From Thermoleophilaceae bacterium (GTDB lineage Bacteria; Actinomycetota; Thermoleophilia; Solirubrobacterales; Thermoleophilaceae), in NCBI GenBank assembly GCA_040901445.1, contig JBBDYQ010000025.1, positions 435,925 to 499,924 of the forward strand: DNA of 64,000 nt, written 5' to 3'. Positions 4,173 to 47,148 of the stretch are shown here, in pieces; position 1 is the first letter of the stretch; each line of letters begins with the position of its first letter. The notes under the pieces were generated by a model that worked only from the letters and a program-made list of their open reading frames with translations, searched no databases and was not told the origin of the DNA. Position numbers and translations under genes: made by a program.

Positions 4173-4370
4173 ATGCCGAAGATGAAGAGCCATTCCGGCG
4201 CGAAGAAGCGCTTCCGCAAGACCGCGAGCGGCAAGCTCCGGGCTCGGCATGCAATGACCAGTCACATCCTCGAGAAGAAGAACGCCAAGCGCAAGCGGCA
4301 CCTCGGCCGCCCGGTCGAGATCTCCTCCCACGACGCCAAGCGCGTCGGCAAGCTCATGGGGGATCGATGA
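4173..4370 (+). CDS. rpmI: 50S ribosomal protein L35
   Basis: A 65-residue, strongly basic ribosomal protein with the L35 signature [17 protein letters not shown] at its start and [16 protein letters not shown] in the middle. Length is standard. The ATG at 4173 defines the canonical N-terminus. Its TGA overlaps the rplT ATG by four bases (ATGA), giving coupled synthesis of L35 and L20. Confidence 0.98.
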
Positions 4371-4726: not shown

Positions 4727-4759
4727 GCGCGATCGGCGCAGCCAGAGCACGAATCTTCC

Positions 4760-4784
4760 GGGCGCCCAGCGAGGCGCCCTTTTT
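4760..4784 (+). terminator. Intrinsic terminator after rplT
   Basis: A perfect 7-bp stem (GGGCGCC / GGCGCCC) with loop CAGCGA is followed directly by TTTTT. It is the only textbook hairpin-plus-U-tract terminator seen in this window and lies 12 bp before the next gene. Confidence 0.9.
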
Positions 4785-4796
4785 CGTTCCACGACC

Positions 4797-6534: not shown

Positions 6535-8981
6535 TGCGCGTCCCCGTCTCCTGGCTCAGGGCCTACTGCGACCCCGGCCTCTCGACCGCGGAGATCGTCG
6601 AGCGGCTCGACATGAGCGGCACCGAGACCGAGCGGGTGGAGCGCGTGGGGGTGGGCTCGGTCGACGCCTTCGTGGTGGGCAGGGTGATCACCGCCGAGCG
6701 GCACCCCGACGCCGACCGCCTGAGCGTGTGCACGGTGGACACGGGCAACGGCCATCCGCGCACGATCGTGTGCGGAGCGCCCAACGTGGCCGCCGGGCAG
6801 ACCGTGGCCGTGGCCCTGCCCGGCGCGGTCATGCCCGACGGCAGCGAGCTGGGCGAGGCCAAGCTGCGCGGCGTGGAGTCCAGCGGCATGATCCTCGCCG
6901 AGGACGAGGTGGGGGTGGGCGAGGACCACGGCGGGATCATGGTGCTGCCCGGCGATGCCCCGGTGGGCGCGCCGCTGGTGGAGCACCTGCAGATCGCCGA
7001 CGAGGTGATCGAGTTCGAGATCACGCCAAACCGGCCCGACTGCCTGGGGATCTACGGAATCGCGCGCGAGCTGCACGCGGCCACAGGCGCGGCCCTGAAG
7101 CCGATCGACGAGGGCGATCCCGACGTGGAGCCGGCCGAGGTGATGCCGGTGGAGATCGACCCCGAGATCTGCCTGCGCTTCACCGTGCGGGTGTTCGAGG
7201 ACGTGAAGATCGGGCCCTCGCCGCTGTGGCTCAAGGCGCGGCTCAGCGCGGCCGGGCAGCGCCCCATCTCCAACGTCGTCGACATCACCAACTACGTGAT
7301 GCTGCTCACCGGCCAGCCGCTGCACGCATTCGACCTCGACCGCGTGCGCGGCGGGAAGCTCGCGGTGCACCAGGCGGCCGAGGGCGACACGCTCACCACG
7401 CTCGACGACGTCGAGCGCAAGCTGTCCGCCGGCATGGCGCTGATCTCCGACGCCGAGGGCCCCACGTCACTGGCGGGCATCATGGGCGGCCAGGTGTCCG
7501 AGGTGCACGACGACACCGCGCGCGTGGCCATGGAGGCCGCCACCTGGGTCGGCCCGAACATCCTCCAGACCTCCAAGGCGCTCACCCTGCGCAGCGAGGC
7601 CAGCGGCCGCTTCGAGAAGCAGCTTCACCCCGATCAGGCGGTCGAGGCCCAGAAGCTGGCCGCGCGGCTGATGGTGGACCTGTGCGGCGCCCGGGCGGTG
7701 CCGGGCATGACCGACGTGTACCCGCAGCCCGCGGAGCCGCGTGTGCTGCGGCTGCGGCTGGCGCGGCTGAAGCGGCTGCTGGGCGAGGAGATCCCGCAGG
7801 CCGACGTGCGCGCCATCCTCGAGCGGCTCGACTTCGGGGTGGCCGGCGCAGACGGCGGCTTCGACGTCACCGTGCCGGGCTTCCGCGACGCCGACGTGCA
7901 GCGCGAGGCCGACCTCGTGGAGGAGGTCGCGCGCATCCACGGGCTGGAGAAGCTGCCCATCACGCTGCCCGCGCGCGAGCGCGCCGTGGGGCGCCTCACG
8001 CCGTCCCAGCGGCTGCGCCGGCGGCTGGAGGACGCCCTGCGCGACCGCGGTCTGCACGAGGTCGTGGCCTACAGCTTCACGCGCCCCGAGGCGCTCGCTG
8101 CGCTCCAGCTGGGCGACGTCCCGCTGCTGCGCCTGGCCAACCCCCTGAGCGAGGACCAGTCGGTCATGCGGCCGCTGCTGCTGCCCGGCCTGCTCGACGC
8201 CGCGCGCCACAACGCCGCGCACGACATGGGCGAGCTCCGCCTGTTCGAGTCCGCGCACGTGTACCGGCCGTCGGGCTCGCTCGACGCGCCGGAGGGCAGC
8301 CCGCGCGGCGCCGATCCCGCCATGGAGCGCCACCACGTGGGCGCACTCATCACCCAGGCGGCGCCCGGCACCTGGCGCAGCGAGGCCCGCGGCGCCGACT
8401 TCTACGCCGCCAAGGGGCTGCTGGAGGGCGTGCTCGGCGCGCTGGGCATCGACTGGTGGATGGAGGAGGGCGAGCGGCCGTTCCTGCACCCGGGCCGCGC
8501 GGCCACGCTGCTGGCGGGCGACGAGCGCACTGGCAGCAGTGCACGCACTGCGGCCGGCACAGGCAAGCTCGGCTGGGTCGGCGAGCTGCACCCGCTCGTG
8601 GCGCGCGCCTGGGACCTCGAGGGCGCGGCCGCGTTCGAGCTGGACGCCGACCTGCTGGCCGAGATCGCCCCGGGCCCGGCCCGCTTCGCCGACGTCACGA
8701 GCTTCCCGGCGGTGTTCCAGGACATCGCGGTGGTCGTGCCCGAGGAGCTGCCGGCCGCCGAGGTGGAGGCAGCCGTGCGCGCCGGCGGCGGCGAGCTGCT
8801 GAGCTCCACGCGCGTGTTCGACGTGTACCGGGGCGACCAGGTGGGAGAGGGCGCCAAGTCGCTCGCCCTGCGGCTGGAGTTCCGCGCGCCCGACCGCACG
8901 CTCACCGAGGACGAGGTGGCCGGGCTGCGCGGGCATATCGAGAGCGAGCTGGCAAAGGTGGGGGGGAGGCTCCGTGCATAG
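6534..8981 (+). CDS. pheT: Phenylalanyl-tRNA synthetase beta subunit
   Basis: An 815-residue beta subunit. Order of domains: N-terminal MRVPVSWLRAYCD, the tRNA-binding OB fold (residues 40-150, RHPDADRLSVCTVDTG), B3/B4 editing domain (about 200-370, NVVDITNYVMLLTGQPLHAFD), B5 DNA-binding-like domain (about 390-460), the catalytic-like core, and a C-terminal ferredoxin-like anticodon-binding domain (DVTSFPAVFQDIAVVVPE onwards). The start is ATG 6534, overlapping the pheS stop by one base; an upstream in-frame extension inside pheS is a shadow. The end overlaps argC by eight bases, linking the pheST and arg genes. Confidence 0.97.
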   Translation: MRVPVSWLRAYCDPGLSTAEIVERLDMSGTETERVERVGVGSVDAFVVGRVITAERHPDADRLSVCTVDTGNGHPRTIVCGAPNVAAGQTVAVALPGAVMPDGSELGEAKLRGVESSGMILAEDEVGVGEDHGGIMVLPGDAPVGAPLVEHLQIADEVIEFEITPNRPDCLGIYGIARELHAATGAALKPIDEGDPDVEPAEVMPVEIDPEICLRFTVRVFEDVKIGPSPLWLKARLSAAGQRPISNVVDITNYVMLLTGQPLHAFDLDRVRGGKLAVHQAAEGDTLTTLDDVERKLSAGMALISDAEGPTSLAGIMGGQVSEVHDDTARVAMEAATWVGPNILQTSKALTLRSEASGRFEKQLHPDQAVEAQKLAARLMVDLCGARAVPGMTDVYPQPAEPRVLRLRLARLKRLLGEEIPQADVRAILERLDFGVAGADGGFDVTVPGFRDADVQREADLVEEVARIHGLEKLPITLPARERAVGRLTPSQRLRRRLEDALRDRGLHEVVAYSFTRPEALAALQLGDVPLLRLANPLSEDQSVMRPLLLPGLLDAARHNAAHDMGELRLFESAHVYRPSGSLDAPEGSPRGADPAMERHHVGALITQAAPGTWRSEARGADFYAAKGLLEGVLGALGIDWWMEEGERPFLHPGRAATLLAGDERTGSSARTAAGTGKLGWVGELHPLVARAWDLEGAAAFELDADLLAEIAPGPARFADVTSFPAVFQDIAVVVPEELPAAEVEAAVRAGGGELLSSTRVFDVYRGDQVGEGAKSLALRLEFRAPDRTLTEDEVAGLRGHIESELAKVGGRLRA

Positions 8982-9981
8982 GGTCGCCGTGGCAGGTGCG
9001 TCGGGCTTCGCGGGTGCGCTCTGCGCTGCGATCGTGGACGCCCATCCGTCGCTCGAGCTCACCGCTGTCACCGCGCGCACCGAAGCCGGCAAGCGGCTCG
9101 ACGCGCTGTATCCGCGCCACCGCGTGCACCTCACGCTGGAGGAGCTCGACGCGGACCGCATCGCCGAGCGGGCCGACGCAGCGCTCGTGGCCTACCCGCA
9201 TGGCGCCGCCGCGCCCGCGGTCAAGGCGCTGCTCGACCGCGGCCTCAAGGTGGTGGACCTGTCGGCGGACTTCCGCCTGGACCGCGAGGCCTACGAGCGC
9301 TACTACCAGCCCCACGCCGAGCCCGGGCTGCTCGAGCGCGCGGTGTACGGGCTCACGGAGCTCCATCGCGACGCCATCCGCGGGGCCGACCTGGTTGCCG
9401 CGCCCGGCTGCTACCCGACCGCCGCCATCCTCGCCCTCGCCCCGCTGCGGGAGGTGATGGCCGACGCCATCGTGGACGCCAAGTCCGGCGTGTCCGGCGC
9501 GGGCCGCGAGGCCTCGCAGACCACGCACTTCGTGTCGGTGGCCGAGAACGTGAACCCGTACAGGGTCGAGGGCCATCGCCACAGGGCCGAGCTCGAGCGC
9601 GAGCTGCCGGGCGGAGTGCCGGTCACGTTCACGCCGCACCTGCTGCCGCTCGACCAGGGCCTGCTGGCCAGCTGCTACGTGACGGCCAAGAGCGAGCTGT
9701 CGGGCGAGGACGTGCGCGCGCTGTTCCACGACGCCTACGACGGCGAGCCGTTCATAGAGCTGGCCGACGCGCCGCCCGGCGTGCGCGACGTGCGCGACAC
9801 CAACCTCTGCCGCATCCACGCCACGGTGGAGCCCGCCACCGGGCGCGTGCTGGCGTTCGCCGCCATCGACAACCTCTGGAAGGGCGCCGCCGGCCAGGCT
9901 GTGCAGGACCTCAACCTCATGCTGGGGCTGCCGGAGACCGAGGGCCTGGGCCCGACGGCGGGCGCGAGGGTGGCGGTGTGA
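8974..9981 (+). CDS. argC: N-acetyl-gamma-glutamyl-phosphate reductase
   Basis: Third step of arginine synthesis: NADPH-dependent reduction of N-acetylglutamyl-5-phosphate to the semialdehyde. The 335 residues have the N-terminal Rossmann signature VAVAGASGFAGALCA, the catalytic cysteine in VAAPGCYPTAAILAL, and downstream TFTPHLLPLDQGLLAS. The GTG start at 8974 gives the canonical N-terminus and overlaps pheT by eight bases. The stop overlaps argJ by four bases. First gene of the argC-argJ-argB-argD run. Confidence 0.97.
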   Translation: MHRVAVAGASGFAGALCAAIVDAHPSLELTAVTARTEAGKRLDALYPRHRVHLTLEELDADRIAERADAALVAYPHGAAAPAVKALLDRGLKVVDLSADFRLDREAYERYYQPHAEPGLLERAVYGLTELHRDAIRGADLVAAPGCYPTAAILALAPLREVMADAIVDAKSGVSGAGREASQTTHFVSVAENVNPYRVEGHRHRAELERELPGGVPVTFTPHLLPLDQGLLASCYVTAKSELSGEDVRALFHDAYDGEPFIELADAPPGVRDVRDTNLCRIHATVEPATGRVLAFAAIDNLWKGAAGQAVQDLNLMLGLPETEGLGPTAGARVAV

Positions 9982-30985: not shown

Positions 30986-32291
30986 ATGCGCGGCTCGCTA
31001 CGGATCCGTCACCAGGCGAGCTGTCCAGCCTCGGCCTCAGGCCGGACGAAGGACCCGCGCGCGTGCCGCTGCTCGCCGTCGGTGCAGGGCCGCGTGGCCG
31101 GTGTGGCGCGCACGCTCGGCCACCTGCAACGCGGCTGGCTCGCGGCCGACCTCATCGCCTTCGAGCACCGCCTCGCCGACCTGCGCGGCCTCGTACTGGA
31201 GGGCCGCCCGCCACCGCCCGCGCGCGTGATCATGCTGGCGGAGTTCGCGGGGCCGTGGTTCGAGCGGATCGCGGCGCAGGTGGAGATGGGGCGGATGTCG
31301 CCGCCCACCTACAACAAGTACGAGGGCGAGTGGCGGCTCTACATCGGGCCGGCGTTCGGGCGCCTGCCGCTGGCGGCGATCGACCAGGCGCAGATCGTGC
31401 GGTCATGCGGCCCGGCCTGGCCAAGGGCCTGAGCGAGTCGACGGTCAAGGGCAAGCTGATCCTGCTGAGCGGGATGCTCACCGACGCGGTGGCCGACGGC
31501 CACATCGCGAGCAACCCGCTGCGAACGCCGCGGCGAGCACGGCACCGCGGGGGCGGGCGCCAGGTGGTCTTCGACCTCCAGCCCGAACGCAAGCCGCCCA
31601 AGTACCTCGAGCCGGTGGAGGCGCGAGCGCTGCTGGCGGCGACGCCGGCGTCGTTCCGCGACATGGTGCTCTGCGCGCTGACCACCGGCTTCCGTCGCAG
31701 CGAGCTGCTGGGCCTGCAGTGGGAGTGGATCGACTTCGGCACCCGGACCATCGACCTCCGCGGCCAGATCTTCTGGCGGCTCACGGGGGAGGGGAACCGG
31801 CGAGAGCCCACGATCCGAGGCTGTAAGTACGCCTCCGAGCGTGAGTTGCCGCTGTGGGACGGCTTGGCGGAGCTGCTGGGCCCGCGCCGCCAGGCAACGG
31901 GATGGGTGTTCCTCAACCCGGAGACCGGCGGGCCATGGAAGGTCACGCGCCCCTCGGACGTGTTCCTGTCGGCCGCGTACGGGGCGGCCGGGCTGCGCCG
32001 CCCCGTACGCATGTGGCACCAGCTCCGCCCCGGACGCATGTGGCACCAGCTCCGCCACACCTATGCGTCGGTGCTGGCGGCGGGCGGCGTGCGCCGCCAC
32101 GAGGTCGAGCAGCTGCTCGGCCACAAGAGCCAGGGCACGACCGGCCTCTACACGCACCTGTTCCGCGACAGCTACGAGACGGTGCACGACGTGCTCGACG
32201 CGGTGTACGGCGGGCGAGCGCGACGACGTCGCACCGGCTGCCCGCTCCCACGGGCCCGCCGACGCGCGTGTCCACGACGGGCCGGTTCTGA
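30986..32291 (+). pseudogene. Tyrosine recombinase/integrase, frameshifted
   Basis: The N-terminal arm- and core-binding regions (TLGHLQRGWLAADLIAFEH, AGPWFERIAAQVEMGRMSP) are in one frame and end at a premature stop at 31430-31432. The catalytic part continues in another frame (GLSESTVKGKLILLSGMLTD, ALTTGFRRSELLGLQWEW with box I Arg, MWHQLRHTYASVLAAGGV with H-x-x-R, LLGHKSQGTTGLYTHLF before the nucleophilic Tyr). Restoring one T near 31403 would rejoin them (QIVRFMRPGLAKG). A 27-bp tandem duplication (32007-32060) doubles MWHQLR inside the box II region, and Arg-rich sequence after DAVYGG suggests a second frameshift near 32210. Likely inactive unless these are sequencing errors. Confidence 0.8.
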
Positions 32292-32294
32292 GCG

Positions 32295-32564
32295 ATGCCG
32301 CCGTTCCCGTCGATCAAGGCACGCCGTCTGCTGGCGATCCTCATGCGCGAGCCGATCTACTCTGAGCCGCAGCCCATGGAGCCGATCCGAGTCATCCATC
32401 ACCACGAAGACGGCAAGTGGTGGTCCGAATCCCCGGACGTCGACGGCTGGTACGCCGCCGGCGACACCCTCGACGAGGTCCGCGCCCTCGCCGAAAAAGG
32501 AATCCCGTGGGCCCTGGAGCGGGACGACGTCCGGCTCGAGCACTTCGTACCGACACCGGCGTAG
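32295..32564 (+). CDS. HicB-like antitoxin fused to a HicA remnant
   Basis: An 89-residue open frame. Residues 28-89 (from an internal ATG at 32376) form a HicB-type antitoxin fold: HHHEDGKWWSESPDVDGWYA, GDTLDEVRALAEKGIPWALE. The first 20 or so residues, MPPFPSIKARRLLAILMREP, resemble the N-terminus of actinobacterial HicA toxins, whose remaining 50 or so residues are missing. An internal deletion probably fused the stub to hicB. If only hicB is made, it starts at 32376. A lone antitoxin could protect against a related toxin elsewhere. Confidence 0.6.
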   Translation: MPPFPSIKARRLLAILMREPIYSEPQPMEPIRVIHHHEDGKWWSESPDVDGWYAAGDTLDEVRALAEKGIPWALERDDVRLEHFVPTPA

Positions 32565-32597
32565 CGACTCGTCGACCGCCGCTGGTGTTCCCCGCTT

Positions 32598-32661
32598 GGC
32601 GATGGCGAACCTAGCCGCGGGAAGGTGCGCGTAAGTAGTCCTGGGCGATCGCGAACCTAGC
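32598..32661 (+). repeat. Pair of 18-bp direct repeats upstream of the ImmA-macro gene
   Basis: GGCGATGGCGAACCTAGC at 32598-32615 and GGCGATCGCGAACCTAGC at 32644-32661 differ by one base and are 46 bp apart. They may be operator sites for the downstream operon or leftovers of a duplication. Confidence 0.55.
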
Positions 32662-32795: not shown

Positions 32796-34163
32796 ATGGC
32801 GACCTACTGGACAAACGAATCGGTTCTGGCCTTTGCGGGCGACCGCGACCCGGTCGACGCGGTCGAGGAGGCCGCCCGAGAGGTCGTCTTCGAAGCGGTG
32901 GAGAACGGCTGGGAGGGACCCCCCTTCGACCCGTTCGAGCTCGCCCGCCTCCTCGGCCTTGAGGTTGTCCCGAAGGACGAGTTCCGCGATGCCAGAACGG
33001 TTCCTGTCGGAGGCGGCGAGGTGGCGATTGAGTACAACCCGACCCGACCGCGGCACCGGCTGCGCTTCTCGATCGCGCACGAGATCGCGCACACGCTCTT
33101 TCCGGACGTCGCGAAGATCGCGCGCTATCGCGCCAACCCGGCTGGCGGTCCGCCCGATGGGTGGCAGCTCGAGCTCCTTTGCAACGTCGCCGCGGCCGAG
33201 TTCCTGATGCCGACAGACACGCTTCCGATGTTGCGCGAGGGCCCTCTCGAGATCGAGGAGCTGATGGACCTCCGGGCTGGCTTCGGCGTCTCTACTGAGG
33301 TACTGCTGCGCCGTGCGACGAAGCTCGCGAGCTATCCCGTCGCGATGTTCGCCGCCTCGCGCACTGAGCCGAGCGCAGCCCGCTCCCCGTTCCGGATCGA
33401 CTACACCGTGCCCTCGCGTGCGTGGGCGCCATCGCTCGAGCGTGGGCGCCACCGCCCGGCTGACTCGGTGCTCTCCGAGTGCACCGCCGTCGGCTTCACG
33501 GCCAAGCGCCAGGAGGACTGGTCTGACGAACTCCGCGGCCTTGCCGTCCAAGCGGTGGGGACACCGCCGTTCCCCGGACAGCGCTTCCCGCGGGTACTCG
33601 GTCTGCTGCATCCGCGTGGGGTGCGGCGGGTCGCGGATGTTGAGCTCGTCCTGGTGCACGGCGATGCCACGGCACCGCGGGGCGCCGGCCCCTTAATGAT
33701 CGTGCATCTCGTGAACGACAGGACCCCAAACTGGGGGGGCGCCTTCGCGCGCGCCCTCCGCGAGCGTCATCCTGCGGCGCAGGAGGATTTTCGAGCCTGG
33801 GTGAACGAGGACCGGACCCGGCTGCGGCTCGGCGCCGCCTTCGTGAGTGAGGTCGATGACGACCTGTACGTCGCGACGATTGTCGGCCAGCACGGTTACG
33901 GACGCTCGGCGCGTCCCCGGATCCGCTACGCCGCGGTGCGGCAGGCTCTCGGGACCGTGGCGCGCTTCGCGAGCGACAGCGCCGTGAGCGTGCACATGCC
34001 GCGCATCGGCGCCGGACAGGCGGGCGGGCGCTGGCCACTTATCCGCGAGATCGTCGAGGAAACACTCACCCGCCGCGGCCTCCCTGTGACGGTCTACGTC
34101 CCGCCCGGCCAGCCGATCCGTGAGGAGTCTCAGCCTCGCGAAGAACTGACGCTCGACGTCTGA
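32796..34163 (+). CDS. ImmA/IrrE-type metalloprotease fused to a macro domain
   Basis: 455 residues. The N-terminal part has the zinc protease motif HEIAH (residues 95-99) with a third ligand candidate in NVAAAEFLMP, as in ImmA/IrrE proteases that cleave repressors on phage or DNA-damage signals. A linker of about 90 residues leads to a macro-domain-like region (about 299-437): MIVHLVNDRTPNWGGAFARA, LGAAFVSEVDDDLYVATIVG, VHMPRIGAGQAGGRW, resembling ADP-ribose-binding or hydrolysing folds such as DarG/TARG1. It lies first in an operon with a kinase-PurZ-like fusion and an ART-like protein; a macro domain beside an ART-like toxin recalls DarTG. The role is inferred. Confidence 0.75.
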   Translation: MATYWTNESVLAFAGDRDPVDAVEEAAREVVFEAVENGWEGPPFDPFELARLLGLEVVPKDEFRDARTVPVGGGEVAIEYNPTRPRHRLRFSIAHEIAHTLFPDVAKIARYRANPAGGPPDGWQLELLCNVAAAEFLMPTDTLPMLREGPLEIEELMDLRAGFGVSTEVLLRRATKLASYPVAMFAASRTEPSAARSPFRIDYTVPSRAWAPSLERGRHRPADSVLSECTAVGFTAKRQEDWSDELRGLAVQAVGTPPFPGQRFPRVLGLLHPRGVRRVADVELVLVHGDATAPRGAGPLMIVHLVNDRTPNWGGAFARALRERHPAAQEDFRAWVNEDRTRLRLGAAFVSEVDDDLYVATIVGQHGYGRSARPRIRYAAVRQALGTVARFASDSAVSVHMPRIGAGQAGGRWPLIREIVEETLTRRGLPVTVYVPPGQPIREESQPREELTLDV

Positions 34164-34169: not shown

Positions 34170-35777
34170 ATGGCCCGCGTCGTCGTCGTGCTCTCCGGTC
34201 CCGTATCTGCCGGGAAGACGACACTTGCGAGCCGGCTCCAGGGCCGTTTCGGGGCGATCCATCTCAAGACGAGCACCCTGCTCGAGGAGCTCGCCGAAGG
34301 CCGGATCCCTCTCGAGCGCGGTGCGATGCAGCGCTTCGGCGCCAGGCTCGACACGCAGACCGGCGGCAAGTGGGTCGCCGAGGACCTCGTGCCCCGTATC
34401 ACCGAGCTGCCCGAGGAAGCGGTGGTTGTCATCGACGCGGCGCGGATCGCCGGGCAAATCGACGCCCTCCGAGCCGGGTTGCCCCGGCAGGTCGTGCACG
34501 TACACCTCACCGCCCCGCGGGAGGTGCTGGAGCGCCGATACGCCAAGCGGCCGAAGACGCGTTTCAAAGAGCGGGCGACCTACGGGGAGGTGCTCGCCAA
34601 CCCGACCGAGCGGCGGGTGCCCAAGCTGAAGCACGACGCCGACGTCGTCATCGACACGGGCAAGAGCACCCGCAAGGACGTCGAGGTCCGCGCCGCGAGC
34701 TACCTCGGCCTCAACGCCCGCGACCCGGGAGCGGTCGTCGACGTGATCGTCGGCGGCCAGTACGGAAGCGAGGGCAAGGGCAACATCGCTTACGCGATCG
34801 GCTCCGAGTACGACCTGCTTTGTCGCGTCGGCGGGCCGAACGCTGGCCACAAGGTCCCACTCGACAAGCCCCTCACCCACCGGCTGCTGCCCTCGGCCAC
34901 CCTGACCAGCGAAGCGCCGATCCTGATAGGCCCCGGCGCGGTCCTCAACGTCGGCGTGCTGTTCGACGAGCTTGAGAAGTCAGGCGTCGAGGACGGGCGG
35001 CTCCACATCGATCCGCAGGCGATGATCATCGCGGACGAGGACATCGACGACGAGGCGGAGCTAATCAAGGAGATCGGCTCGACGGGCCAGGGCGTCGGTG
35101 CCGCGACGGCGCGCCGGATCACCGGCCGGCGTAACGGGACTCAGCTTGCGCGCGACATCGACCTGCTGAAGCCCTTCATCGCTCCCGCCCACGAGCTCCT
35201 CGCTGACGCATATGCCAAGGGCGCCAGCGTTCTACTCGAGGGTACCCAGGGTACTGCGCTCAGCCTGTACCACGGCAGCTACCCGCACGTCACCTCCCGC
35301 GACACGACCGCAGCTGGCTGCCTCGCGGAGATGGGGATTTCCCCGTCACGTGTCCGGCGCGTGATTATGGTGTGCCGCACCTACCCGATCCGTGTCCAGA
35401 GCCCTACCGCGAGAGGCAAGACCTCCGGCCCGATGTCGCAGACCACAAACTGGAAGGAGATCGCGCGCCGCTCGCGCATACCGCTTGCTGAGCTCCGGCG
35501 TGTCGAGAAGGGCTCCGTTTCGAAGAAACAGCGGCGCGTCGGTGAGTTCGACTGGGAGCTCCTCCGCCGCGCTGCCGAGATCAACGGCGCGACCGACATT
35601 GCCCTCACATTCGTCGACTACCTTGACATCGACAACCGGAAAGCCCGCCGCTTCGACCAGCTCCAGCCCGACACGATTCGCTTTATCGAGGAAGTCGAGC
35701 GCGTGGCCGGGGCGCCTGTGTCACTGATCTCTACTCGCTTCCACGTCCGCAGCGTCATTGACCGGCGTGCCTGGTAG
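34170..35777 (+). CDS. P-loop kinase fused to adenylosuccinate synthetase (PurA/PurZ-like)
   Basis: 535 residues. Residues 1-185 are a nucleotide-kinase-like P-loop domain (SGPVSAGKTTLASRLQGRFG, then VVIDAARIAGQIDALRAGLP). Residues 188-535 match a short, archaeal/phage-type adenylosuccinate synthetase: VGGQYGSEGKGNIAYAIG, GGPNAGHK, EIGSTGQGVGAATARR, LLEGTQGTALSLYHGSYPHV, TSRDTTAAG and SVSKKQRRVGEFDW. The catalytic Asp of PurA (GDEGKG) is Ser200 here, as remembered for phage PurZ, which uses dGMP to make 2-amino-dAMP precursors. The NAGH histidine is kept. The gene lies six bases from its neighbours on both sides. Substrate is unproven; GMP, IMP or dGMP are possible. Confidence 0.8.
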   Translation: MARVVVVLSGPVSAGKTTLASRLQGRFGAIHLKTSTLLEELAEGRIPLERGAMQRFGARLDTQTGGKWVAEDLVPRITELPEEAVVVIDAARIAGQIDALRAGLPRQVVHVHLTAPREVLERRYAKRPKTRFKERATYGEVLANPTERRVPKLKHDADVVIDTGKSTRKDVEVRAASYLGLNARDPGAVVDVIVGGQYGSEGKGNIAYAIGSEYDLLCRVGGPNAGHKVPLDKPLTHRLLPSATLTSEAPILIGPGAVLNVGVLFDELEKSGVEDGRLHIDPQAMIIADEDIDDEAELIKEIGSTGQGVGAATARRITGRRNGTQLARDIDLLKPFIAPAHELLADAYAKGASVLLEGTQGTALSLYHGSYPHVTSRDTTAAGCLAEMGISPSRVRRVIMVCRTYPIRVQSPTARGKTSGPMSQTTNWKEIARRSRIPLAELRRVEKGSVSKKQRRVGEFDWELLRRAAEINGATDIALTFVDYLDIDNRKARRFDQLQPDTIRFIEEVERVAGAPVSLISTRFHVRSVIDRRAW

Positions 35778-35783: not shown

Positions 35784-36449
35784 ATGGATCCCGCCGAGAT
35801 CGTCCGCCACTACCCCCGGCTCTATCACATGGCCGAGCTCGGCTCATGGGCGAGCGTCAAGCGCCACGGTTTGCTCTCCACGCGCGCGCTCATCGATCTC
35901 TTCGAGGTGAAGGAGCCGCTGCGATCCCAGATCCTGCGCCAGCGCCGACCCGAGTGCCTTGAACTCCGCCATCCCGAGCATGGCGCTGCCGTCGTTCGTG
36001 ATCAGATCCCCTTGCGTGAGGGCCCGCTGAGGGGCTGCCTCACCGATATGACCCTCGAGCAATGGCTCGACGCGCTCAACTCGCGTGTCTTCTTCTGGAT
36101 GGATGAGCCCCACCTCGAGATCCTGCTCGGCGCCGGCGCGTATCGCGACAAGGCCCATGACGTGCTCCACGTCGATACTGCCGCCCTGCTTGAGCGCCAC
36201 GCCCCACGTGTGACGCTGTCTCCGATCAACTCCGGTAGCACGATTTACAACCCGCGGCCGCGCGGCTCCACTACCTTCCTGCCGATTGCCGACTTCCCGT
36301 TCGACGAACGCCGCCGCGCGCGCGGCAAGGACGCCATCATCGAGCTCGCCGTCGATCACAGCGTCCCCAACATCGTCGATCTCCTCGTTCGTGTCGAGCG
36401 CAGGCGCGCCGGTGGGACGATCGAGGAGGTCATCTGGGAGCGCCCCTGA
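35784..36449 (+). CDS. DUF7002-type protein, possibly ADP-ribosyltransferase-like
   Basis: 221 residues, soluble. It opens with HYPRLYHMAELGSWASVKRH and GLLSTRALIDLF, followed by LTDMTLEQWLDALNSRVFFW, a pattern recalled from the family labelled DUF7002 and reminiscent of ART-fold proteins (DarT, RNA 2'-phosphotransferase) that begin with a YH-x-T-like strand. The C-terminal half has VLHVDTAALLERHAPRVTLS and SGSTIYNPRPRGSTTFLPI. No catalytic Glu was assigned. Its position between the macro-domain/PurZ-like genes and a nucleoside kinase suggests a toxin or nucleotide-modifying role. Its TGA overlaps the next start (CTGA). Confidence 0.6.
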   Translation: MDPAEIVRHYPRLYHMAELGSWASVKRHGLLSTRALIDLFEVKEPLRSQILRQRRPECLELRHPEHGAAVVRDQIPLREGPLRGCLTDMTLEQWLDALNSRVFFWMDEPHLEILLGAGAYRDKAHDVLHVDTAALLERHAPRVTLSPINSGSTIYNPRPRGSTTFLPIADFPFDERRRARGKDAIIELAVDHSVPNIVDLLVRVERRRAGGTIEEVIWERP

Positions 36450-38236: not shown

Positions 38237-38767
38237 TTGCCGAGAACACCATTTCGCGTAGCGCTGTTTTTCAGCTCGTACGCCCCGCTGTTTGGCCTGC
38301 TCGCGTATACGAATCGCGGGTGCGCCGCGGCGTGGAAGACGCTCAGCGCTGTGGCCGTGATCTCGAGCCTTGGCCTCCTGGTGGTCATGTTGGCGAACCT
38401 TCGCGAACAAGGACCGCGACTTGAGGTGAAGCACTCCCGGCCGCAGGATGGAGACGTGCTCGCCTATATCGCGACCTACCTGATCCCCTTCTTCGGCGTC
38501 GACCTCGCCGTCACGAACGACGCGGTGCTGTTCGTAGGCTTCTTGGCCGTGATCATGGTCATTTACATCAACTCGAACATGTTGCTCGTCAATCCGCTGC
38601 TGACCATCGTCGGATACCACACGTTCGAGATCACAGATGCCGATGGGCACGCGTATTCGTTGATCACGCGCCGGCAGGGCTTCGAGCCGGGCGAAACGAT
38701 CAGGCCCGCGCAAGTCACTCGCTATCTCAGGTTGGAGGTGCGGAATGACCGCAAAGACCGCGCTTGA
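38237..38767 (+). CDS. kwaA: Kiwa defence protein KwaA
   Basis: A 176-residue membrane protein with four predicted helices: VALFFSSYAPLFGLLAYTN, TLSAVAVISSLGLLVVMLAN, LAYIATYLIPFFGVDLAV and VLFVGFLAVIMVIYINSNML. Order and size fit KwaA, the membrane partner in the two-gene Kiwa anti-phage system, in which KwaA senses infection and recruits KwaB. The start is TTG 38237; a weak TAGGCG lies eight bases before it. It overlaps kwaB by 23 bases. The call rests on four helices plus the DUF4868 neighbour. Confidence 0.8.
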   Translation: MPRTPFRVALFFSSYAPLFGLLAYTNRGCAAAWKTLSAVAVISSLGLLVVMLANLREQGPRLEVKHSRPQDGDVLAYIATYLIPFFGVDLAVTNDAVLFVGFLAVIMVIYINSNMLLVNPLLTIVGYHTFEITDADGHAYSLITRRQGFEPGETIRPAQVTRYLRLEVRNDRKDRA

Positions 38768-39701
38768 GGAACTGCGCGATTTTTTCGAGGATGAGCCAGA
38801 TCTCGAGGCAGCCACGGTTGCGCGCGGTAAAGGTGGCTCGGCCGTCCCTGAAGTGCGCGTCCTCAACCTCGCAGGAGACGCCCAGGAATTCTTCCGGGCA
38901 GTGGTCAAGTCGGCCGTCGTCGACAAGATCGGGCGCTGGTCATTGAAGAAGCTTGATCCGCTTTACAAGCCCGACCCAGACGAGGTGGAGTGGGAACGCA
39001 CGGCGGACATCGAGGCGGTCGAACTCGCGGTCGACCGCTATAGGAACCTCTCGCCATTGGCTCAGTTCGACGCCGGAGACGATGCCTACAAGAAGCGCCT
39101 GCTGTATTGGGTCGTCGTCCTGTCGCACACGGACGGCCGCCAAGCCTTCTTCTTTCGGTCGTTCACCGCGTCCGCGGAACTTGAGCGTAAGCGTGGCGCA
39201 GCGCTCGTCGCCCGGGAGGGAACGTTCCGACGCGTCGAGGAGCGCATTTTCCTCTTCGAGGACACGATCGACTGTTTCGTCTTCGACGATTTCCTATACG
39301 TCGTGCGTAAGCGCGACTACCGCCGCATCTTCGATCAGCTGGATCAGATCAGGCGGCGAGCCAAGCGGGCGGCACGCGCGCTACACCGCCAGGTGCCGAT
39401 CGCGAATGTCGACGAGTTTGCCGACGCGTGCTCGACTGACTCGCGCATGGCCGACAAAGTTCTCGCCGTCCAGAACCGCGACTACTTCAATACGCTCAGC
39501 TACGACCGGCTGAAGAAGGTGATCGAGGAGTTCTCGCTCCAGATTCCTACGGAAAAGCGTAATGGCAAAGTGCATCTCGTCTTTCGCACAGAGCCAAATC
39601 AGCGCTTTCGGATCCTCAAGCTGGTCGACGACGACTATCTCCGATCGTCGTGGACGGATCACCGTTACGAGGTCAACTCGAAGACGGATCCGCCAGGCTA
39701 G
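38745..39701 (+). CDS. kwaB: Kiwa defence protein KwaB (DUF4868)
   Basis: A 318-residue cytoplasmic protein, the size of KwaB. It matches the DUF4868 pattern: VVKSAVVDKIGRWSLKKLDP, FFRSFTASAELERKRG, FLFEDTIDCFVFDDFLYVVR, FDQLDQIRRRAKRAARAL and YDRLKKVIEEFSLQIPTEKR. KwaB is the DNA-associated effector of Kiwa. ATG 38745 lies within kwaA after GGAGG. The stop codon is at 39699-39701, six bases before the terminal inverted repeat of an IS, so the original C-terminus may have been altered by the insertion. Confidence 0.85.
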   Translation: MTAKTALEELRDFFEDEPDLEAATVARGKGGSAVPEVRVLNLAGDAQEFFRAVVKSAVVDKIGRWSLKKLDPLYKPDPDEVEWERTADIEAVELAVDRYRNLSPLAQFDAGDDAYKKRLLYWVVVLSHTDGRQAFFFRSFTASAELERKRGAALVAREGTFRRVEERIFLFEDTIDCFVFDDFLYVVRKRDYRRIFDQLDQIRRRAKRAARALHRQVPIANVDEFADACSTDSRMADKVLAVQNRDYFNTLSYDRLKKVIEEFSLQIPTEKRNGKVHLVFRTEPNQRFRILKLVDDDYLRSSWTDHRYEVNSKTDPPG

Positions 39702-39706
39702 CCCGC

Positions 39707-40697
39707 TGATGCGTATCCGGTTCCGTCAGGTACGCGCCCTACGGTGCGCCTGTGGCTCGACCAGGCTTCCCGCGCACGATCATGGAGTTCCAGGACCGCT
39801 TCGGCACTGACGCCGCATGCCTCGACTACCTCGCGGCGTCGCGCTGGCCAGAGGGTTTCATCTGCCCCCGTTGCGGCGGGCGTCGCGCCTGGGTACTCGA
39901 GCGCCGGCACCTCTGGGAGTGCTCGGCCTGCGCTCTGCAAACCTCTGTCACGGCCGGGACGGTGATGCACCGAACGCGAACCCCGCTGCGCACTTGGTTC
40001 TGGGCCGCCTATCTGGTCGCCACCCATCACCCCGGGATCTCGGCCAAGCAGCTGCAGCGACAACTCGGGCTCTCGCGCTATGAGACGGCGTGGCTGATCT
40101 TGCAGAAGCTGCGCCGCGCGATGGTGGCTCCCGAGCGCGAGCCCTTGAAGGGCGAGGTAGAGATCGACGACTTCTGGCTCGGCGGGCACGAGGAGGGCCT
40201 CAAAGGAAGCCGCCAGCGCGGCAAGAAGGCGCTCGTAGGCGCCGCGGTCGAGGTTCGCGGGCATGGATCGGGGCGATTGCGCCTGCAGGTGCTCGCCAGC
40301 TCGCGGGCGAGGACGCTGGAGGCGTTCACGACGACGACGACGGCCCCGGGGGCGATCGTTCACACCGACGGGCTCAACTCCTACGCGGGACTGGCCAAGC
40401 TCGGCTACGGGCACCGCCCGCGCAAACAGACCGGTGCCACGCCCGAGGAGCAACTGCTACCGCGGGTGCATCGAGCGATCTCCAACCTGAAGGCCTGGAT
40501 GCACGGCACCCATCGCGGCGTCTCAAATGAGTACCTGCCCGTCTACCTCGATGAGTTCGTCTTCCGCCACAACCGGCGAGGCACGCCGATGGCCGCCTTT
40601 CAAACCCTCCTCGGGCTCGGCGCAGTCCACGATCCGACGACCTACGACGAGATCACGGCGCTCAGGCATGCAGCCTGAGTCAACCGGATACGCATCA
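39707..40697 (+). mobile_element. IS1595-family insertion sequence
   Basis: 991 bp bounded by perfect 16-bp terminal inverted repeats, TGATGCGTATCCGGTT at 39707-39722 and its complement at 40682-40697. GCCCGC flanks both ends as a direct repeat (39701-39706, 40698-40703); IS1595 elements usually make 8-bp duplications, so the exact ends may shift. One transposase gene fills it. Confidence 0.85.
39752..40678 (+). CDS. IS1595-family transposase
   Basis: 308 residues. An N-terminal zinc ribbon (CPRCGGRRAWVLERRHLWEC, SAC) and TRTPLRTWFWAAYLVATHHP precede a DDE/DDN-type catalytic domain: GEVEIDDFWLGGHEEG with the first acidic residue, GAIVHTDGLNSYAGL with the second, and RVHRAISNLKAWMHGTHRGV with the third region. 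EFVFRHNRRGTP is typical of the family C-terminus. The frame is intact and the terminal repeats perfect, so the IS may be active. Confidence 0.9.
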   Translation: MARPGFPRTIMEFQDRFGTDAACLDYLAASRWPEGFICPRCGGRRAWVLERRHLWECSACALQTSVTAGTVMHRTRTPLRTWFWAAYLVATHHPGISAKQLQRQLGLSRYETAWLILQKLRRAMVAPEREPLKGEVEIDDFWLGGHEEGLKGSRQRGKKALVGAAVEVRGHGSGRLRLQVLASSRARTLEAFTTTTTAPGAIVHTDGLNSYAGLAKLGYGHRPRKQTGATPEEQLLPRVHRAISNLKAWMHGTHRGVSNEYLPVYLDEFVFRHNRRGTPMAAFQTLLGLGAVHDPTTYDEITALRHAA

Positions 40698-40789
40698 GCC
40701 CGCTAGAGCGCCGAGTGTTTGGGCTGCCGGTTCCGCACGGAAGCAAGAACACCGGGCTCGAATCCGCGGCCGCAAGCCTTAGCCACGTC

Positions 40790-40939
40790 TCGGCCACGAA
40801 ATGCCCGCTCAGCACGGATCACAACGAACCACACGAAACCCGCACCGCGCGAGAAGTGCCCGATTTCCAGCCACTTCCCGTGATACGTTGACCCCGATGC
40901 TGGTCGGCCATGACCCCAAAGTGCCGGTACTACCTCCAA
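40790..40939 (+). repeat. Right-end repeat, copy 1
   Basis: Homologous to 46997-47148. Shared blocks include GCTCAGCACGGATCACAAC, ATTTCCAGCCACTTCCCGTG and CCAAAGTGCCGGTACTAC. It contains an imperfect inverted repeat around GAAGTG / CACTTC. Probably integrase or accessory-factor arm sites. Confidence 0.7.
40927..40939 (+). repeat. Internal attachment core, two mismatches
   Basis: GTACTACCTCCAA, differing from the outer cores at two positions. It has a right-end repeat before it and a left-end sequence after it, as expected at the junction of two tandem elements. Confidence 0.65.
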
Positions 40940-41116
40940 CGTGCGCCGCTAAACGCCTGCAACCAGCGGTCTAGCAACAACGCCGGCTCAGCACGGATCA
41001 CGATGCACGCGGGTTGCCCTCGCTCTGCTTCATACATCCGGACGCGAACGTACGATCGGTTGGGGTCGGTTCTCCCTGTTGGGCCGATCGGCCATGAGAT
41101 ACGAAAGGTGCCCGTG

Positions 41117-41338
41117 ATGAACTTCATCCACATTCCCCTCGGCCACCAGAAGCGCGGCGCGACCGTTGAAGTCGTTCTGAAGGGGAACGCCGCGAATGTG
41201 CGACTGCTCGACAGCTCGAATTTCTCGAGCTACCGCAACGGAAGGCGACATCGCTATTACGGAGGGCTCGTCAGGAGGTCGCCTTACCGCGTCACGATCC
41301 CACGGAGCGGGACCTGGCACGTCGCCGTTGACATGTAA
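41117..41338 (+). CDS. DUF1883 domain, N-terminal part of a split DUF1883-TIR gene
   Basis: 73 residues covering a complete DUF1883 domain: MNFIHIPLGHQKRGATVEVV, GNAANVRLLDSSNFSSYRNG, HRYYGGLVRRSPYRVTIPRS, ending WHVAVDM and TAA. In related proteins the same domain continues (VDM-x-GLRG) into a linker and a TIR domain. Here the codon after VDM is TAA and the frame then reads GLRGQIQAGARVLPGPLPPA without a shift, so one nonsense change divides the gene. ATG 41117 follows AAAGGTG. The short product may still be made. Confidence 0.75.
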   Translation: MNFIHIPLGHQKRGATVEVVLKGNAANVRLLDSSNFSSYRNGRRHRYYGGLVRRSPYRVTIPRSGTWHVAVDM

Positions 41339-41371
41339 GGGCTCAGAGGGCAGATCCAGGCTGGTGCGCGG

Positions 41372-41905
41372 GTGCTACCCGGACCGCTACCGCCAGCGCG
41401 CTCAGCATCACCAGGGCTGATTGAGATCGCGGATAACATCGCGGAGTACTCTGGCGATTCCGCCGACGACATGAAGCAGTACGACGTTTTCATTTCTCAC
41501 GCGACAGAGGACAAGGACGCGATCGTTAGGCCGCTGGCCATCGCGCTCGCCGAGCGTGGGCTTGATGTCTGGTATGACGAGTTCGAGCTGCGCATTGGTG
41601 ACAGCCTCCGGCGAAAGATTGACCGGGGCATCGCCAACGCCCGGTTCGGCGTCGTCGTTCTCTCACGGGCGTTTTTCGCGAAGAATTGGCCCCAGTACGA
41701 ACTCGACGGGCTCGTGACCCGCGAGATTCATGGCGGCAACCAGATCATCCTTCCGCTTTGGCATGGGCTCTCGAAGGATGAGCTGCTCCGACACAGTCCA
41801 TCCCTCGCCGATAAGGTCGCGCTGCGGACCTCCGACCTGTCTGTAGACCAGATCGCGGACGAGGTCGCTGCGGTGATCTTGGGGGACGAGGCAAAGGCCG
41901 CCTAG
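41372..41905 (+). CDS. TIR-domain protein, C-terminal part of a split DUF1883-TIR gene
   Basis: 177 residues from an internal GTG, in the same frame as the DUF1883 part. The TIR domain (residues 34-165) has YDVFISHATEDKDAIVRPLA, VWYDEFELRIGDSLRRKIDR, FGVVVLSRAFFAKNWPQYEL with the Glu used by NAD+-cleaving TIR enzymes, and ILPLWHGLSKDELLRHSPSL. TIR proteins of bacteria act in phage defence by degrading or converting NAD+. It is uncertain whether it is expressed: no good ribosome site precedes GTG 41372, and readthrough of TAA would be needed for the full 262-codon protein. Confidence 0.75.
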   Translation: MLPGPLPPARSASPGLIEIADNIAEYSGDSADDMKQYDVFISHATEDKDAIVRPLAIALAERGLDVWYDEFELRIGDSLRRKIDRGIANARFGVVVLSRAFFAKNWPQYELDGLVTREIHGGNQIILPLWHGLSKDELLRHSPSLADKVALRTSDLSVDQIADEVAAVILGDEAKAA

Positions 41906-42236: not shown

Positions 42237-42869
42237 ATGCCGCCTTCATCTGAACTGACGCCGTCGCAGCGTCTCCTGCTTCAGATGGCGTCGCCCCGCG
42301 CCGCGAACTTCGTCCAATGGTGGGAGGGGCGGCAGCGGCTGAAGCAGGAAAGGTACTTGTCGTTCGTCGAGATCGCGGAAGCTGAGGATGTAGGAAGCCT
42401 CGATGCGCTGCTAGACCGCGCCCGGGACGATGATGAGCTCAGCGACTTCGTCGAGGCGGTGATTGAGCATGTCGTGAAGGAGTCGTCCCGAGCGAAGGTG
42501 GCGGCGTTCGGCCGCCTGTTGCGGCTCATGACGGACACGGGCGATGACACGCAAGTCGATGAGGCATGGTTGCTTCTGCGCGCAGTCGCTGAGCTTGATC
42601 CGCCGCACTTGAGGGTTCTTCGGCGTCTCAGAGAGGAAGGCAACCGCTATCACGGGGTGAACGACTACGCCCTGGCCGGGATGTTCGAGCGCGGAACCGT
42701 TGTGCTCTACCCGCTGCTGAAGACGCTCGAACGCCACGGCCTAGCCGGCCCCCTTCGCCCAGCTCCAGCGGGTGACCCGGACAGTCCCATCGAGTGGGCC
42801 ATATGGGACTTCGGCCTCTTGTTCCTCGATCGACTCTTTCCGCCTGGATCACAGCGCAGGACCAGCTGA
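42237..42869 (+). CDS. Helical protein of unknown function
   Basis: 210 residues, predicted almost entirely helical: LTPSQRLLLQMASPRAANFV, DVGSLDALLDRARDDDELSD, FVEAVIEHVVKESSRAKVAA, EAWLLLRAVAELDPPHLRVL. No signal peptide, membrane helix or known motif. The ATG at 42237 follows GATGAGGCTGAA, a weak ribosome site. It faces the convergent PRTase/radical SAM operon of element 2. Its place in a defence island suggests a role there, but nothing in the sequence shows which. Confidence 0.55.
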   Translation: MPPSSELTPSQRLLLQMASPRAANFVQWWEGRQRLKQERYLSFVEIAEAEDVGSLDALLDRARDDDELSDFVEAVIEHVVKESSRAKVAAFGRLLRLMTDTGDDTQVDEAWLLLRAVAELDPPHLRVLRRLREEGNRYHGVNDYALAGMFERGTVVLYPLLKTLERHGLAGPLRPAPAGDPDSPIEWAIWDFGLLFLDRLFPPGSQRRTS

Positions 42870-43221: not shown

Positions 43222-44244
43222 TCATATCCTGAGCAGCGCCCGTGACTGGGCGCAGGAGAAGGGCTCGCCCTTGAAGCGCTCGAGTTCCTTGACCGCGTCG
43301 TCCACGGATGGAACCTCCGCGAGGAACTTGAGCTCCTCGGGACCCACGGCTAGCAGAGCATGAAGGTGGAGATCTTGCCCTTGAAACCCGCGGTTACCAG
43401 CCTGTCCGGAGGCGTCCTTGACACGGAAGAGCACGACAACGTCGCCGACTCTGGCGAACGGCAGCTTGCTTGTCTCCACGTACTCGTTAAAGCGTCGCAC
43501 CGCGCTACATATCTGAGACCCACCCCTGCAGCTGTCGTCGATAACGACGGCGCGGTAGCGAGGTTCTGCTGGGCGGCCCTTCTGGTCCTCTTCGGTGAGA
43601 AACGCGCGAAGGCCTTCGAAGTCGGTCTCGTGGGCAGCGTCGTCCGCCGGGCGGGTTACGAGCGACCGGTCATTCTCACCTTTGCACAAAATCAGGTGTT
43701 TCTGACTAACTTTGGCCACCGCGCGGGCCAATAGCGGATTCCCTTCCTTGGGCGCCAGCACACAGTCGAAATGGGGAACCGCGCCTCGCTCGATAAGGAT
43801 GTTGAGCCAAGAGAGGAAGATCTGCTCGAGTGCCGCCTCATACGGCTCACGCTGATACACCGCCCCCATCATGTCTAAGTAATAGGGTGACCCGCGATAC
43901 GTGTAGGGCGAGGGGAGCTCGTAGGTCCACCGCTTTAGGCGCCGGAGAAAGCTGATATCAGGGCGGTCGGCTACTTCTTTGCTGAGCTTCCGGGCCTGTC
44001 GGCCGAGGGGATCTCCTGCGGCGCGGTAGCGCTCAAGGGCCTCTCGCTCAATGCCTAGCGACTGGAGCAGCAGCCGAGCTCGGGCCACCTCGGCGCGTTT
44101 CGTCATCCGCCCAAGGCGAGACTGCTCGCTGACCCACCCTTGATTGACAATCTCGTCTCGCAATTGCGCGAGCGCGTTCAAGACGAGGACCAATAGCGCG
44201 ACAACGGTGGCCCCCGCGAGGACCACAAGGATAACGTCGGTCAC
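43222..44244 (-). CDS. Membrane-anchored phosphoribosyltransferase-like protein
   Basis: 340 residues. One N-terminal membrane helix (VILVVLAGATVVALLVLVLN, residues 4-23), a helical linker with RLKRWTYELPSPYTYRGSPY, then a type I PRTase-like domain. FDCVLAPKEGNPLLARAVAK (159-178) corresponds to the first substrate loop, and RAVVIDDSCRGGSQICSAVR (231-250) to the PRPP-binding signature of two acidic residues followed by a Gly/Ser loop. Last gene of a three-gene minus-strand operon, overlapping the radical SAM gene by four bases. Substrate unknown. Confidence 0.7.
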   Translation of the reverse strand: MTDVILVVLAGATVVALLVLVLNALAQLRDEIVNQGWVSEQSRLGRMTKRAEVARARLLLQSLGIEREALERYRAAGDPLGRQARKLSKEVADRPDISFLRRLKRWTYELPSPYTYRGSPYYLDMMGAVYQREPYEAALEQIFLSWLNILIERGAVPHFDCVLAPKEGNPLLARAVAKVSQKHLILCKGENDRSLVTRPADDAAHETDFEGLRAFLTEEDQKGRPAEPRYRAVVIDDSCRGGSQICSAVRRFNEYVETSKLPFARVGDVVVLFRVKDASGQAGNRGFQGQDLHLHALLAVGPEELKFLAEVPSVDDAVKELERFKGEPFSCAQSRALLRI

Positions 44245-45086
44245 GAGGCGGCTGGCTGGAACTCACGCACCACGGGTCTGGTGTCTCCTTTCGCGGAGCC
44301 CTCGATTAGGTCCGTCATCAAGTCGATGTCGCTCTCAAAGACGCGCATTCCCGCTCGCAGTGCAAAGCGACGCAATCGGTCGACACGCTCGGCAGTCTCA
44401 CGAACTGGCCATACCGGCCTCTCCCGCAACCACCGCACTTCCCTGGCCTTCGTCCTAGAGCCAGATGCCGGCTCCGCGATCAAGTGCCGTCGCTGAGATT
44501 TGTCAGAGTCGAGGTATTCCTCACCGACTAGCACTGACGATGTAGCTCCGCTCGCCTCACTCACGATCTCCTCGTACTCAGCGTCGGGGATGTCAGCCAA
44601 TAGCGGACGCAGAACGAGGGCCGATGGAATTCCTGCAGAGGACAACGCGGTTAGTCCCGCGATTCGAGTCTCGTACGTCGGGGTGCGAGGCTCAATTTCA
44701 CGAACGCGATGCTTCGTGGTAAGCGACACGCCAACCTTTAGCACTTGGCCACGGCTCGCAAGCTCCTTCGAGAGGCAGGCCAGATCACCAAGAACGTCCG
44801 GACGGAGCCGGGCCTTCGTTGAAACGCTGATTGAGGCGCCGAGCCTCGCGACACGCGTCAAGACCCCCACGGCATCCTTCCGTACGAACAAGTCCACATC
44901 ACACGCCGGGTAAATGACGTCGATATCGGTCAGCAGATCAGGAGAGGCCTCGACCGTGCTCAAGGTAACCCCGCCCTCGTACTGGCTAAAGCGCGCGAAG
45001 CAGTAACGGCAGCCGAAGGGACAGGGCTGTGAGTCAATTGTGAGCATCAGGCGCCGCAGCGTCTGATGCGGCAGCTCGTCCATCAC
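44241..45086 (-). CDS. Radical SAM protein
   Basis: 281 residues. The cluster motif is C22-C26-C29 in SQPCPFGCRYCFARFSQYEG, preceded by LMLTIDSQ, which places it at the start of the barrel. Later strands include ISVSTKARLRPDVLGDLACL, LKVGVSLTTKHRVREIEPRT and IPSALVLRPLLADIPDAEYE, a layout like SplB or other small radical SAM enzymes that act on nucleic acid or nucleotides. No extra C-terminal cluster cysteines. Overlaps both neighbours by four bases, so the three proteins are probably made together. Confidence 0.8.
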   Translation of the reverse strand: MMDELPHQTLRRLMLTIDSQPCPFGCRYCFARFSQYEGGVTLSTVEASPDLLTDIDVIYPACDVDLFVRKDAVGVLTRVARLGASISVSTKARLRPDVLGDLACLSKELASRGQVLKVGVSLTTKHRVREIEPRTPTYETRIAGLTALSSAGIPSALVLRPLLADIPDAEYEEIVSEASGATSSVLVGEEYLDSDKSQRRHLIAEPASGSRTKAREVRWLRERPVWPVRETAERVDRLRRFALRAGMRVFESDIDLMTDLIEGSAKGDTRPVVREFQPAAS

Positions 45087-46102
45087 GCCACTTCCTCGTC
45101 TACAGTCGGCGACTTGCGCGGGGTTTGGCCCGGGCGCACCTTAAAGCGATGCAAACCATCCTTCTTCGCACGGATCGCCGTGAACAGGTCGTCAAGCTTT
45201 ACACTGGCGAGCCCGGCGGTGAGCGGCCCAGGGTCCACGAGCAGGGCTCTGGCACTGTCAATGTCAGCGACAGTGGCGAAATGCCCAAAGTTGGGCGCAT
45301 CAGGGTACACGAATGAAGCGTCGAAGCCGACGGCCAGCGCGTCGTAGCGCGCCAATGCCTCCCGTAGGACGTCAGGGAAAGACATCTCGCTGATGAACTC
45401 GATCCCAAGAAAATCGTCGATTAGCGGGATGCCAGCCGCCTCGAGGTAGGGATCAAGGGACCCGATCTGCATGACGACTCCAAAGCGGGAGAAGTCCGCC
45501 GCGTCCTCGCCCTCAGGTGGCTCGACCACGGGGGGCAGGACCTGGGCGAATCTCTCCCTGGAGTATTCGGGGAAGCCCGTCGCGTGCGCGACCATCGCTA
45601 GCGACGCCGCGACGCAGCCGAGATCATCGGCTACCACGAGTTTGTACTTCGAGTGCTCTTCCACCAGTCGGTTCCTGAGCGTAGCGGTGGGATCGACCCA
45701 CCCCGCAGGCTTGGCAATCTTGCCATCCTCCCGCACCAGCGGCTTGCCGTTTGGCCCCAGCTTCTTCATGTTCGCTTCGTGCACGACCTCAAAGAGCTGC
45801 CCGCCGTCCACCCCGAGCTCGACGAGGGTTCCCAAAGCGAAGTAGATCAGGTCGACCATCGCATCGGCCTGTCCGATCAGGTCGCTTGCCGCGAGGAACT
45901 CGTCGAGCTCCTCGCGCATCCACGCTTCGCGCGCGCGAGCCCTGGACTCGTTGAGGGCCCCCGGAAGCCTCTCTGTCGGATGGCCAAACGCCTCGTGGAA
46001 TTCCGCTACGCACCGTTGCGCATCGGTTAAGCCGTGCCCAGGGTTGCCATTCGGCGCTCTGAACCTTGTGTCTCTTTCGGGGGCCTCCGCAGGCGGCGTC
46101 AT
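45083..46102 (-). CDS. NTP pyrophosphohydrolase-like domain fused to a C39-like domain
   Basis: 339 residues from ATG 46102. Residues 30-137 form an all-alpha NTP-PPase (MazG / PRA-PH-like) with EELDEF (64-69) and DAMVD (80-84), giving the E-E-x-x-E and D-x-x-x-D metal sites. Residues 140-320 resemble a C39/papain-like fold: Cys163 in DDLGCVAASLAMVAHATG, His274 in APNFGHFATVADID and Asp290 in ALLVDPGP. First gene of the operon with the radical SAM and PRTase-like genes. TACGGT ends six bases before the ATG on the minus strand, so the operon is probably leaderless. Confidence 0.7.
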   Translation of the reverse strand: MTPPAEAPERDTRFRAPNGNPGHGLTDAQRCVAEFHEAFGHPTERLPGALNESRARAREAWMREELDEFLAASDLIGQADAMVDLIYFALGTLVELGVDGGQLFEVVHEANMKKLGPNGKPLVREDGKIAKPAGWVDPTATLRNRLVEEHSKYKLVVADDLGCVAASLAMVAHATGFPEYSRERFAQVLPPVVEPPEGEDAADFSRFGVVMQIGSLDPYLEAAGIPLIDDFLGIEFISEMSFPDVLREALARYDALAVGFDASFVYPDAPNFGHFATVADIDSARALLVDPGPLTAGLASVKLDDLFTAIRAKKDGLHRFKVRPGQTPRKSPTVDEEVA

Positions 46103-46975: not shown

Positions 46976-46996
46976 AGCGCCGTCATCTGGCCACGT

Positions 46997-47148
46997 GCTG
47001 ACCACAAAACGCCGGCTCAGCACGGATCACAACCGATGACTCGAAAACCCGCACCGAGCGAGAAGTGGCCCATTTCCAGCCACTTCCCGTGATACGTTCG
47101 TCCCGATCCTGCTCGGCGTTGACACCAAAGTGCCGGTACTACATCTAA
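46997..47148 (+). repeat. Right-end repeat, copy 2
   Basis: Second copy of the right-end sequence. It includes the inverted repeat GAAGTGG / CCACTTC around 47061-47085 and ends in the attR-like core. A short third copy of the outer part (CGCCGGCTCAGCACGGATCA) occurs alone at 40980-41000. Confidence 0.7.
47136..47148 (+). repeat. Right attachment core (attR-like)
   Basis: GTACTACATCTAA, identical to the core at the Rrf2 stop. Chromosomal sequence (GCGGCAGCTCGGGAGCTC) follows and is presumably what originally followed the Rrf2 gene. Confidence 0.75.

Follow-up and report, generated by a model that had tools for sequence, protein, structure and literature searches.

An operon of three overlapping open reading frames lies on the minus strand at positions 43222-46102 of the window, the 64,000-nucleotide stretch of Thermoleophilaceae DNA that was analyzed. 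Its predicted products are a MazG-type NTP pyrophosphohydrolase fused to a second domain (gene 1), a radical SAM enzyme (gene 2), and a membrane-anchored protein with a putative phosphoribosyltransferase (PRTase)-like domain (gene 3). We propose tentatively, giving the statement as a whole somewhat less than an even chance, that the operon is a mobile module for nucleotide chemistry, rarely found and centered on a pair of genes, that is used most likely against phage or another mobile element. The nucleotide chemistry taken by itself is rated considerably higher.

Gene 1 (45083-46102) encodes 339 amino acids counted from its ATG, with a further in-frame GTG upstream at 46387, while gene 2 (44241-45086) encodes 281 amino acids and gene 3 (43222-44244) encodes 340. 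A preliminary sequence-only reading had all three genes overlapping by four bases, which is the case for genes 2 and 3 (4 nt, GTGA) and, for genes 1 and 2, depends on the start of gene 2: 4 nt from the GTG or 1 nt from the adjacent ATG. Frame length is weak evidence for coding, because the longest stop-to-stop frame in simulated random GC-rich sequence averaged 190 codons and reached 429. GC by codon position is gene-like, lowest at position 2 and highest at position 3, and genes 2 and 3 have homologues 42% and 36% identical, in the same order, in G366, a genome from the same phylum but a different class, which argues for genes rather than chance frames. Within the operon region, no Rfam family and no promoter-like site were found.

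The surroundings are those of an island of about 31-47.5 kb, with GC of 62-65% at about 35-46 kb versus 71-73% around it. A gene of the phage integrase (tyrosine recombinase) family sits at the island's left edge (31063-32634, plus strand; PF00589, 1.1e-15), followed by genes for an M78/CapP-like peptidase (32796-34163), a fusion of a P-loop kinase-like domain with adenylosuccinate synthetase (34170-35777), possibly a second nucleotide-related module of the island, and a DUF7002 protein (35784-36449). Farther along are the Kiwa genes on the plus strand, encoding KwaA (38237-38767; PADLOC, 2.3e-24) and KwaB (38745-39701; PADLOC, 4.3e-20; Pfam, 1.8e-16), and directly after them an IS1595 element (39752-40678; inverted repeats at 39698-39730 and 40674-40706). 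DUF1883 and TIR domains share one reading frame at 40910-41905 with a single in-frame stop between them (41336-41338), and are probably an interrupted single gene; the TIR part matches PADLOC PDC-S66 at 3.1e-68. A direct repeat of ~158 nt, with two copies only in the genome and no match in plasmids, brackets the TIR gene, an ORF of no known identity (42237-42869), and the operon (left copy, 40782-40939; right copy, 46990-47148, 84% identical to the left).

Low GC, the integrase, IS1595, Kiwa, and TIR all fit acquisition of the operon as mobile DNA, as do the transposase gene upstream and the replication-relaxation gene downstream of the copy in G366. The setting fits an acquired island with defense genes, location not being proof of function, and it is from position, on an island shared with Kiwa and TIR genes, that we infer a role in defense.

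Motif and family matches identify gene 2 as a radical SAM enzyme with a distant relationship to the PA0069 and Rv2578c (SplB-like) families. The radical SAM assignment made from the sequence was borne out: the cysteines of its CxxxCxxC motif (C22/C26/C29) are invariant in all seven aligned sequences, and the PA0069 family NF033668 matches at 1.7e-12. The match to PF04055 was below the cut-off for gene 2 itself (3.6e-5, 24.4 bits versus 29.5) and above it for a Ktedonobacter relative (2.3e-10). PA0069 and Rv2578c are the nearest named radical SAM families, but scores of 47 bits against a curated NCBIfam cut-off of 360 for the former and 30 bits against 430 for the latter (2.6e-7) led us to reject membership in either; gene 2 also has its own signature motif, YPACDxDLF, and is operonic with a PRTase-like protein. 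Spore photoproduct lyase gave a marginal match. Single-protein queries for gene 2 found nothing in viral contigs, and an alignment found three distant radical SAM loci there, at 22-24% identity.

Gene 3 begins with a transmembrane helix (approximately residues 4-22; hydropathy, 3.21) that is also present in the G366 homologue (2.66), so the membrane anchor first noticed in the sequence stands. For the rest of the protein, a putative type I PRTase-like domain is plausible at a level short of significance. The motifs VVIDDSCRGGSQ and LAPKEGNPLLAR look like type I PRTase loops for PRPP and PPi. In profile alignments with PRTases of four families, drawn from related genomes, the PRPP loops coincided each time; two of the scores lay in about the top 5% of shuffles, and the other two were average. 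The window protein itself had no match to PF00156 or any other Pfam family, and its G366 homologue matched PF00156 weakly over the right region (E=0.08), which leaves the PRTase-like label given earlier a weak one. Other motifs are PKEGNPLLAR, KGEND, and HETDFEGLRA, and the aspartates first numbered D237/D238 are in fact D236/D237. Matches of 15-18 bits to the PRT profile in five genomes of the class were weak and taken as noise. Neither gene 3 nor its G366 homologue was found in plasmids or viral contigs.

In gene 1, residues ~30-140 form a clear MazG/PRA-PH-type NTP pyrophosphohydrolase domain as judged from profile matches, in agreement with the sequence-only reading. Residues 32-111 match PF01503 at 3.5e-16 (59.8 bits versus a gathering score of 21.3), the phage MazG-like family phrog_671 matches at 1.2e-32, and, in PDB, 3nl9 and DR2231 match at 5.6e-23 and about 1e-9, respectively. 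Microbacterium phage MazG genes match gene 1 at the DNA level. By inspection, the acidic residues are E64/E65/E68 and D80/D84 (EELDE...DAMVD). The C-terminal ~195 amino acids had no match in Pfam or PDB up to E=10 or in NCBIfam, and no homologues in viral contigs; weak matches in loci L024-L026 proved to be chance alignments. What stands of the C39-like label given to this half is a papain/C39-like Cys-His-Asp order, C163-H274-D290, read by eye, and the half is possibly a papain-like peptidase or acyltransferase. Structure prediction by AlphaFold, suggested at the outset, yielded models too poor to use, with pLDDT of 35 for gene 1 from a single sequence and 46 for gene 3 from a two-sequence alignment, and a Foldseek search with the latter returned nothing usable.

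Recurrence of the trio in other genomes had been set beforehand as a test. No other genome sampled had the exact trio; the pair of radical SAM and PRTase-like genes recurs in G366. The search for gene 3 took in 101 relatives, 396 genomes from the phylum, 399 from the class, and 248 from the order to which G366 belongs, in samples that overlapped; that for gene 2 took in 346 genomes from the phylum. Clear positives for both proteins came from the window's genome and G366 only (2/396 phylum genomes for gene 3 and 2/346 for gene 2). Scans of genome_contigs produced no closer radical SAM or PRT relative, a weak absence because these short-peptide-pattern scans also missed G366. In G366 (locus L003), the radical SAM gene (1415-2230) is followed by the PRT-like gene (2239-3249) and a deoxynucleoside kinase gene (3249-3860; PF01712, 1.5e-18), and gene 1 was not seen in a view limited on the left by the contig edge. 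Because G366 carries the pair without gene 1, we take genes 2 and 3 as the core; with one other pair known, guilt by association is thin. An ORF downstream of the G366 trio (4147-4701) looks nuclease-like by eye (PDF...EVYEP) and has no Pfam match.

More distant relatives of gene 2, at 28-31% identity, were found in Ktedonobacteria by the genome_contigs scan. In three of these loci (L013, L015, and L017), a CYTH-type gene overlaps or directly follows the radical SAM gene, and a divergent regulator-like gene lies upstream; PF01928 was checked in L013 and L017, and PF04198, a sugar-binding domain, was checked and found in the regulator of L013. The radical SAM/CYTH region of L013 spans 7995-9463. 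CYTH proteins, like those of the MazG type, are triphosphate hydrolases. The partners thus change but stay enzymes of nucleotides or triphosphates, with MazG in the window, a deoxynucleoside kinase in G366, and a CYTH-like protein in Ktedonobacteria, and this supports the initial suggestion of nucleotide or base chemistry. A survey of jumbo phages has proposed, for triphosphatases of both the MazG-like and the CYTH kind, a possible role in degrading unmodified NTPs in phages (PMC7824862). Of the indirect hints that the radical SAM enzyme acts on a nucleoside triphosphate or adjacent to one, the exchange of MazG for CYTH, seen in few loci and among distant relatives, is the best.

A working model can be drawn from these assignments, in an order of reactions that we infer. 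The MazG-type half of gene 1 would convert a (d)NTP to the (d)NMP and pyrophosphate, and gene 2 would alter, by radical chemistry, a nucleobase, nucleotide, or related small molecule. The product of gene 3, tethered to the membrane, would, if it has PRTase activity, join that base to, or strip it from, ribose-5-phosphate by using PRPP. The outcome would be a nucleotide pool modified or depleted, most likely against phage or another mobile element. That the radical SAM and membrane PRTase-like pair is, more specifically, at the heart of a so far undescribed system against phage, in which radical chemistry changes or depletes a nucleotide and MazG, CYTH, and deoxynucleoside kinase are interchangeable partners, seems unlikely to us at present.

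One alternative, which we consider rather unlikely, is that the genes serve salvage or lesion repair and have no part in defense. An SplB-like radical SAM enzyme would reverse damage to free bases or nucleotides, MazG would sanitize damaged NTPs, and the PRTase or kinase would recycle the products. That the nearest kin of gene 2 are PA0069/Rv2578c and that it weakly matches spore photoproduct lyase agrees with such a role, as does the fact that MazG-type and deoxynucleoside kinase genes are typical of sanitation and salvage. Housekeeping repair, however, would hardly be expected to be patchy, island-borne, and flanked by mobile elements, and the PRTase identity is putative.

It is also improbable, in our estimate, that there is no three-gene system and that gene 1, a phage-type MazG joined to an unrelated domain, lies by chance upstream of a unit of genes 2 and 3. 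Gene 1 may be an incidental neighbor because none was seen at the G366 locus, and the absence of the trio elsewhere and the presence of similar MazG domains in phage genes are in keeping with this. Against it, the coding overlap of genes 1 and 2 points to cotranslation, and CYTH may play a comparable partner in Ktedonobacteria. Small-molecule biosynthesis appears less likely still; the product would be some metabolite such as a modified nucleoside, either nucleoside-antibiotic-like or for signaling, with the C39-like half as acyltransferase or peptidase and gene 3 at the membrane. A radical SAM, PRTase-like, and kinase set could build an unusual nucleotide, and Ter systems have been proposed to make a nucleoside-like signal via PRTases (PMC7824862), but beside these genes neither the window nor the G366 locus shows anything that is obviously a transporter, a resistance determinant, or an additional tailoring enzyme.

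Returning to the proposed nucleotide-chemistry module, the remark that the set is not a named defense system holds as far as tested. PADLOC-DB 2.0.0 had no match for genes 1 and 3 and a negligible one for gene 2, to pVip PDLC02904 (E=0.045 over 19 residues). With pVips, which are radical SAM nucleotide dehydratases, the operon shares a radical SAM enzyme, a proposed nucleotide substrate, a nucleoside kinase neighbor in G366, and a defense-type location, but gene 2 fits PA0069/Rv2578c far better than viperin NF038283 (1.7e-12 versus E=0.13 in NCBIfam), and at 11.3 bits against a cut-off of 180, a viperin identity was not supported. Viperins are not known to us to have a PRTase-like partner. Gene 1 resembles the all-alpha NTP pyrophosphohydrolases of the MazG/PRA-PH type, such as DR2231 and phage MazG-like proteins, and differs in its fusion to a domain matching no family. 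Ter PRTase modules and PRTase-CE (PF24390) share with the operon a PRTase-like protein whose setting is supposedly one of conflict, and the DD...G..Q-type loop of gene 3 resembles PRTase-CE by eye. Gene 3, by contrast, has a transmembrane helix, and membership was left unsupported: the window's genome gave no match to PRTase-CE, and no Ter gene was seen among the island genes scanned.

We found no description of such an operon in a literature search mostly outside subscription journals, and we know of no earlier account of a membrane-bound PRTase-like partner. If the pair performs radical nucleotide chemistry for defense, it would represent a second route, beside viperin, by which nucleotides are made or destroyed against phage. 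If it acts in salvage or repair instead, it would offer a handle on the uncharacterized PA0069/Rv2578c-like radical SAM enzymes.

Relatives of the NTP pyrophosphohydrolase half of gene 1 also occur on plasmids, in neighborhoods consistent with deoxynucleotide metabolism. One copy (L027) adjoins a ribonucleotide reductase gene. Another (L028), which shares 47% identity with the N-terminal half of gene 1, lies on a Parabacteroides plasmid in a run (694-5980) where genes for ThyX, an ATP-binding protein, and a HIT-domain protein precede the MazG-like pyrophosphohydrolase gene and DHFR follows it.
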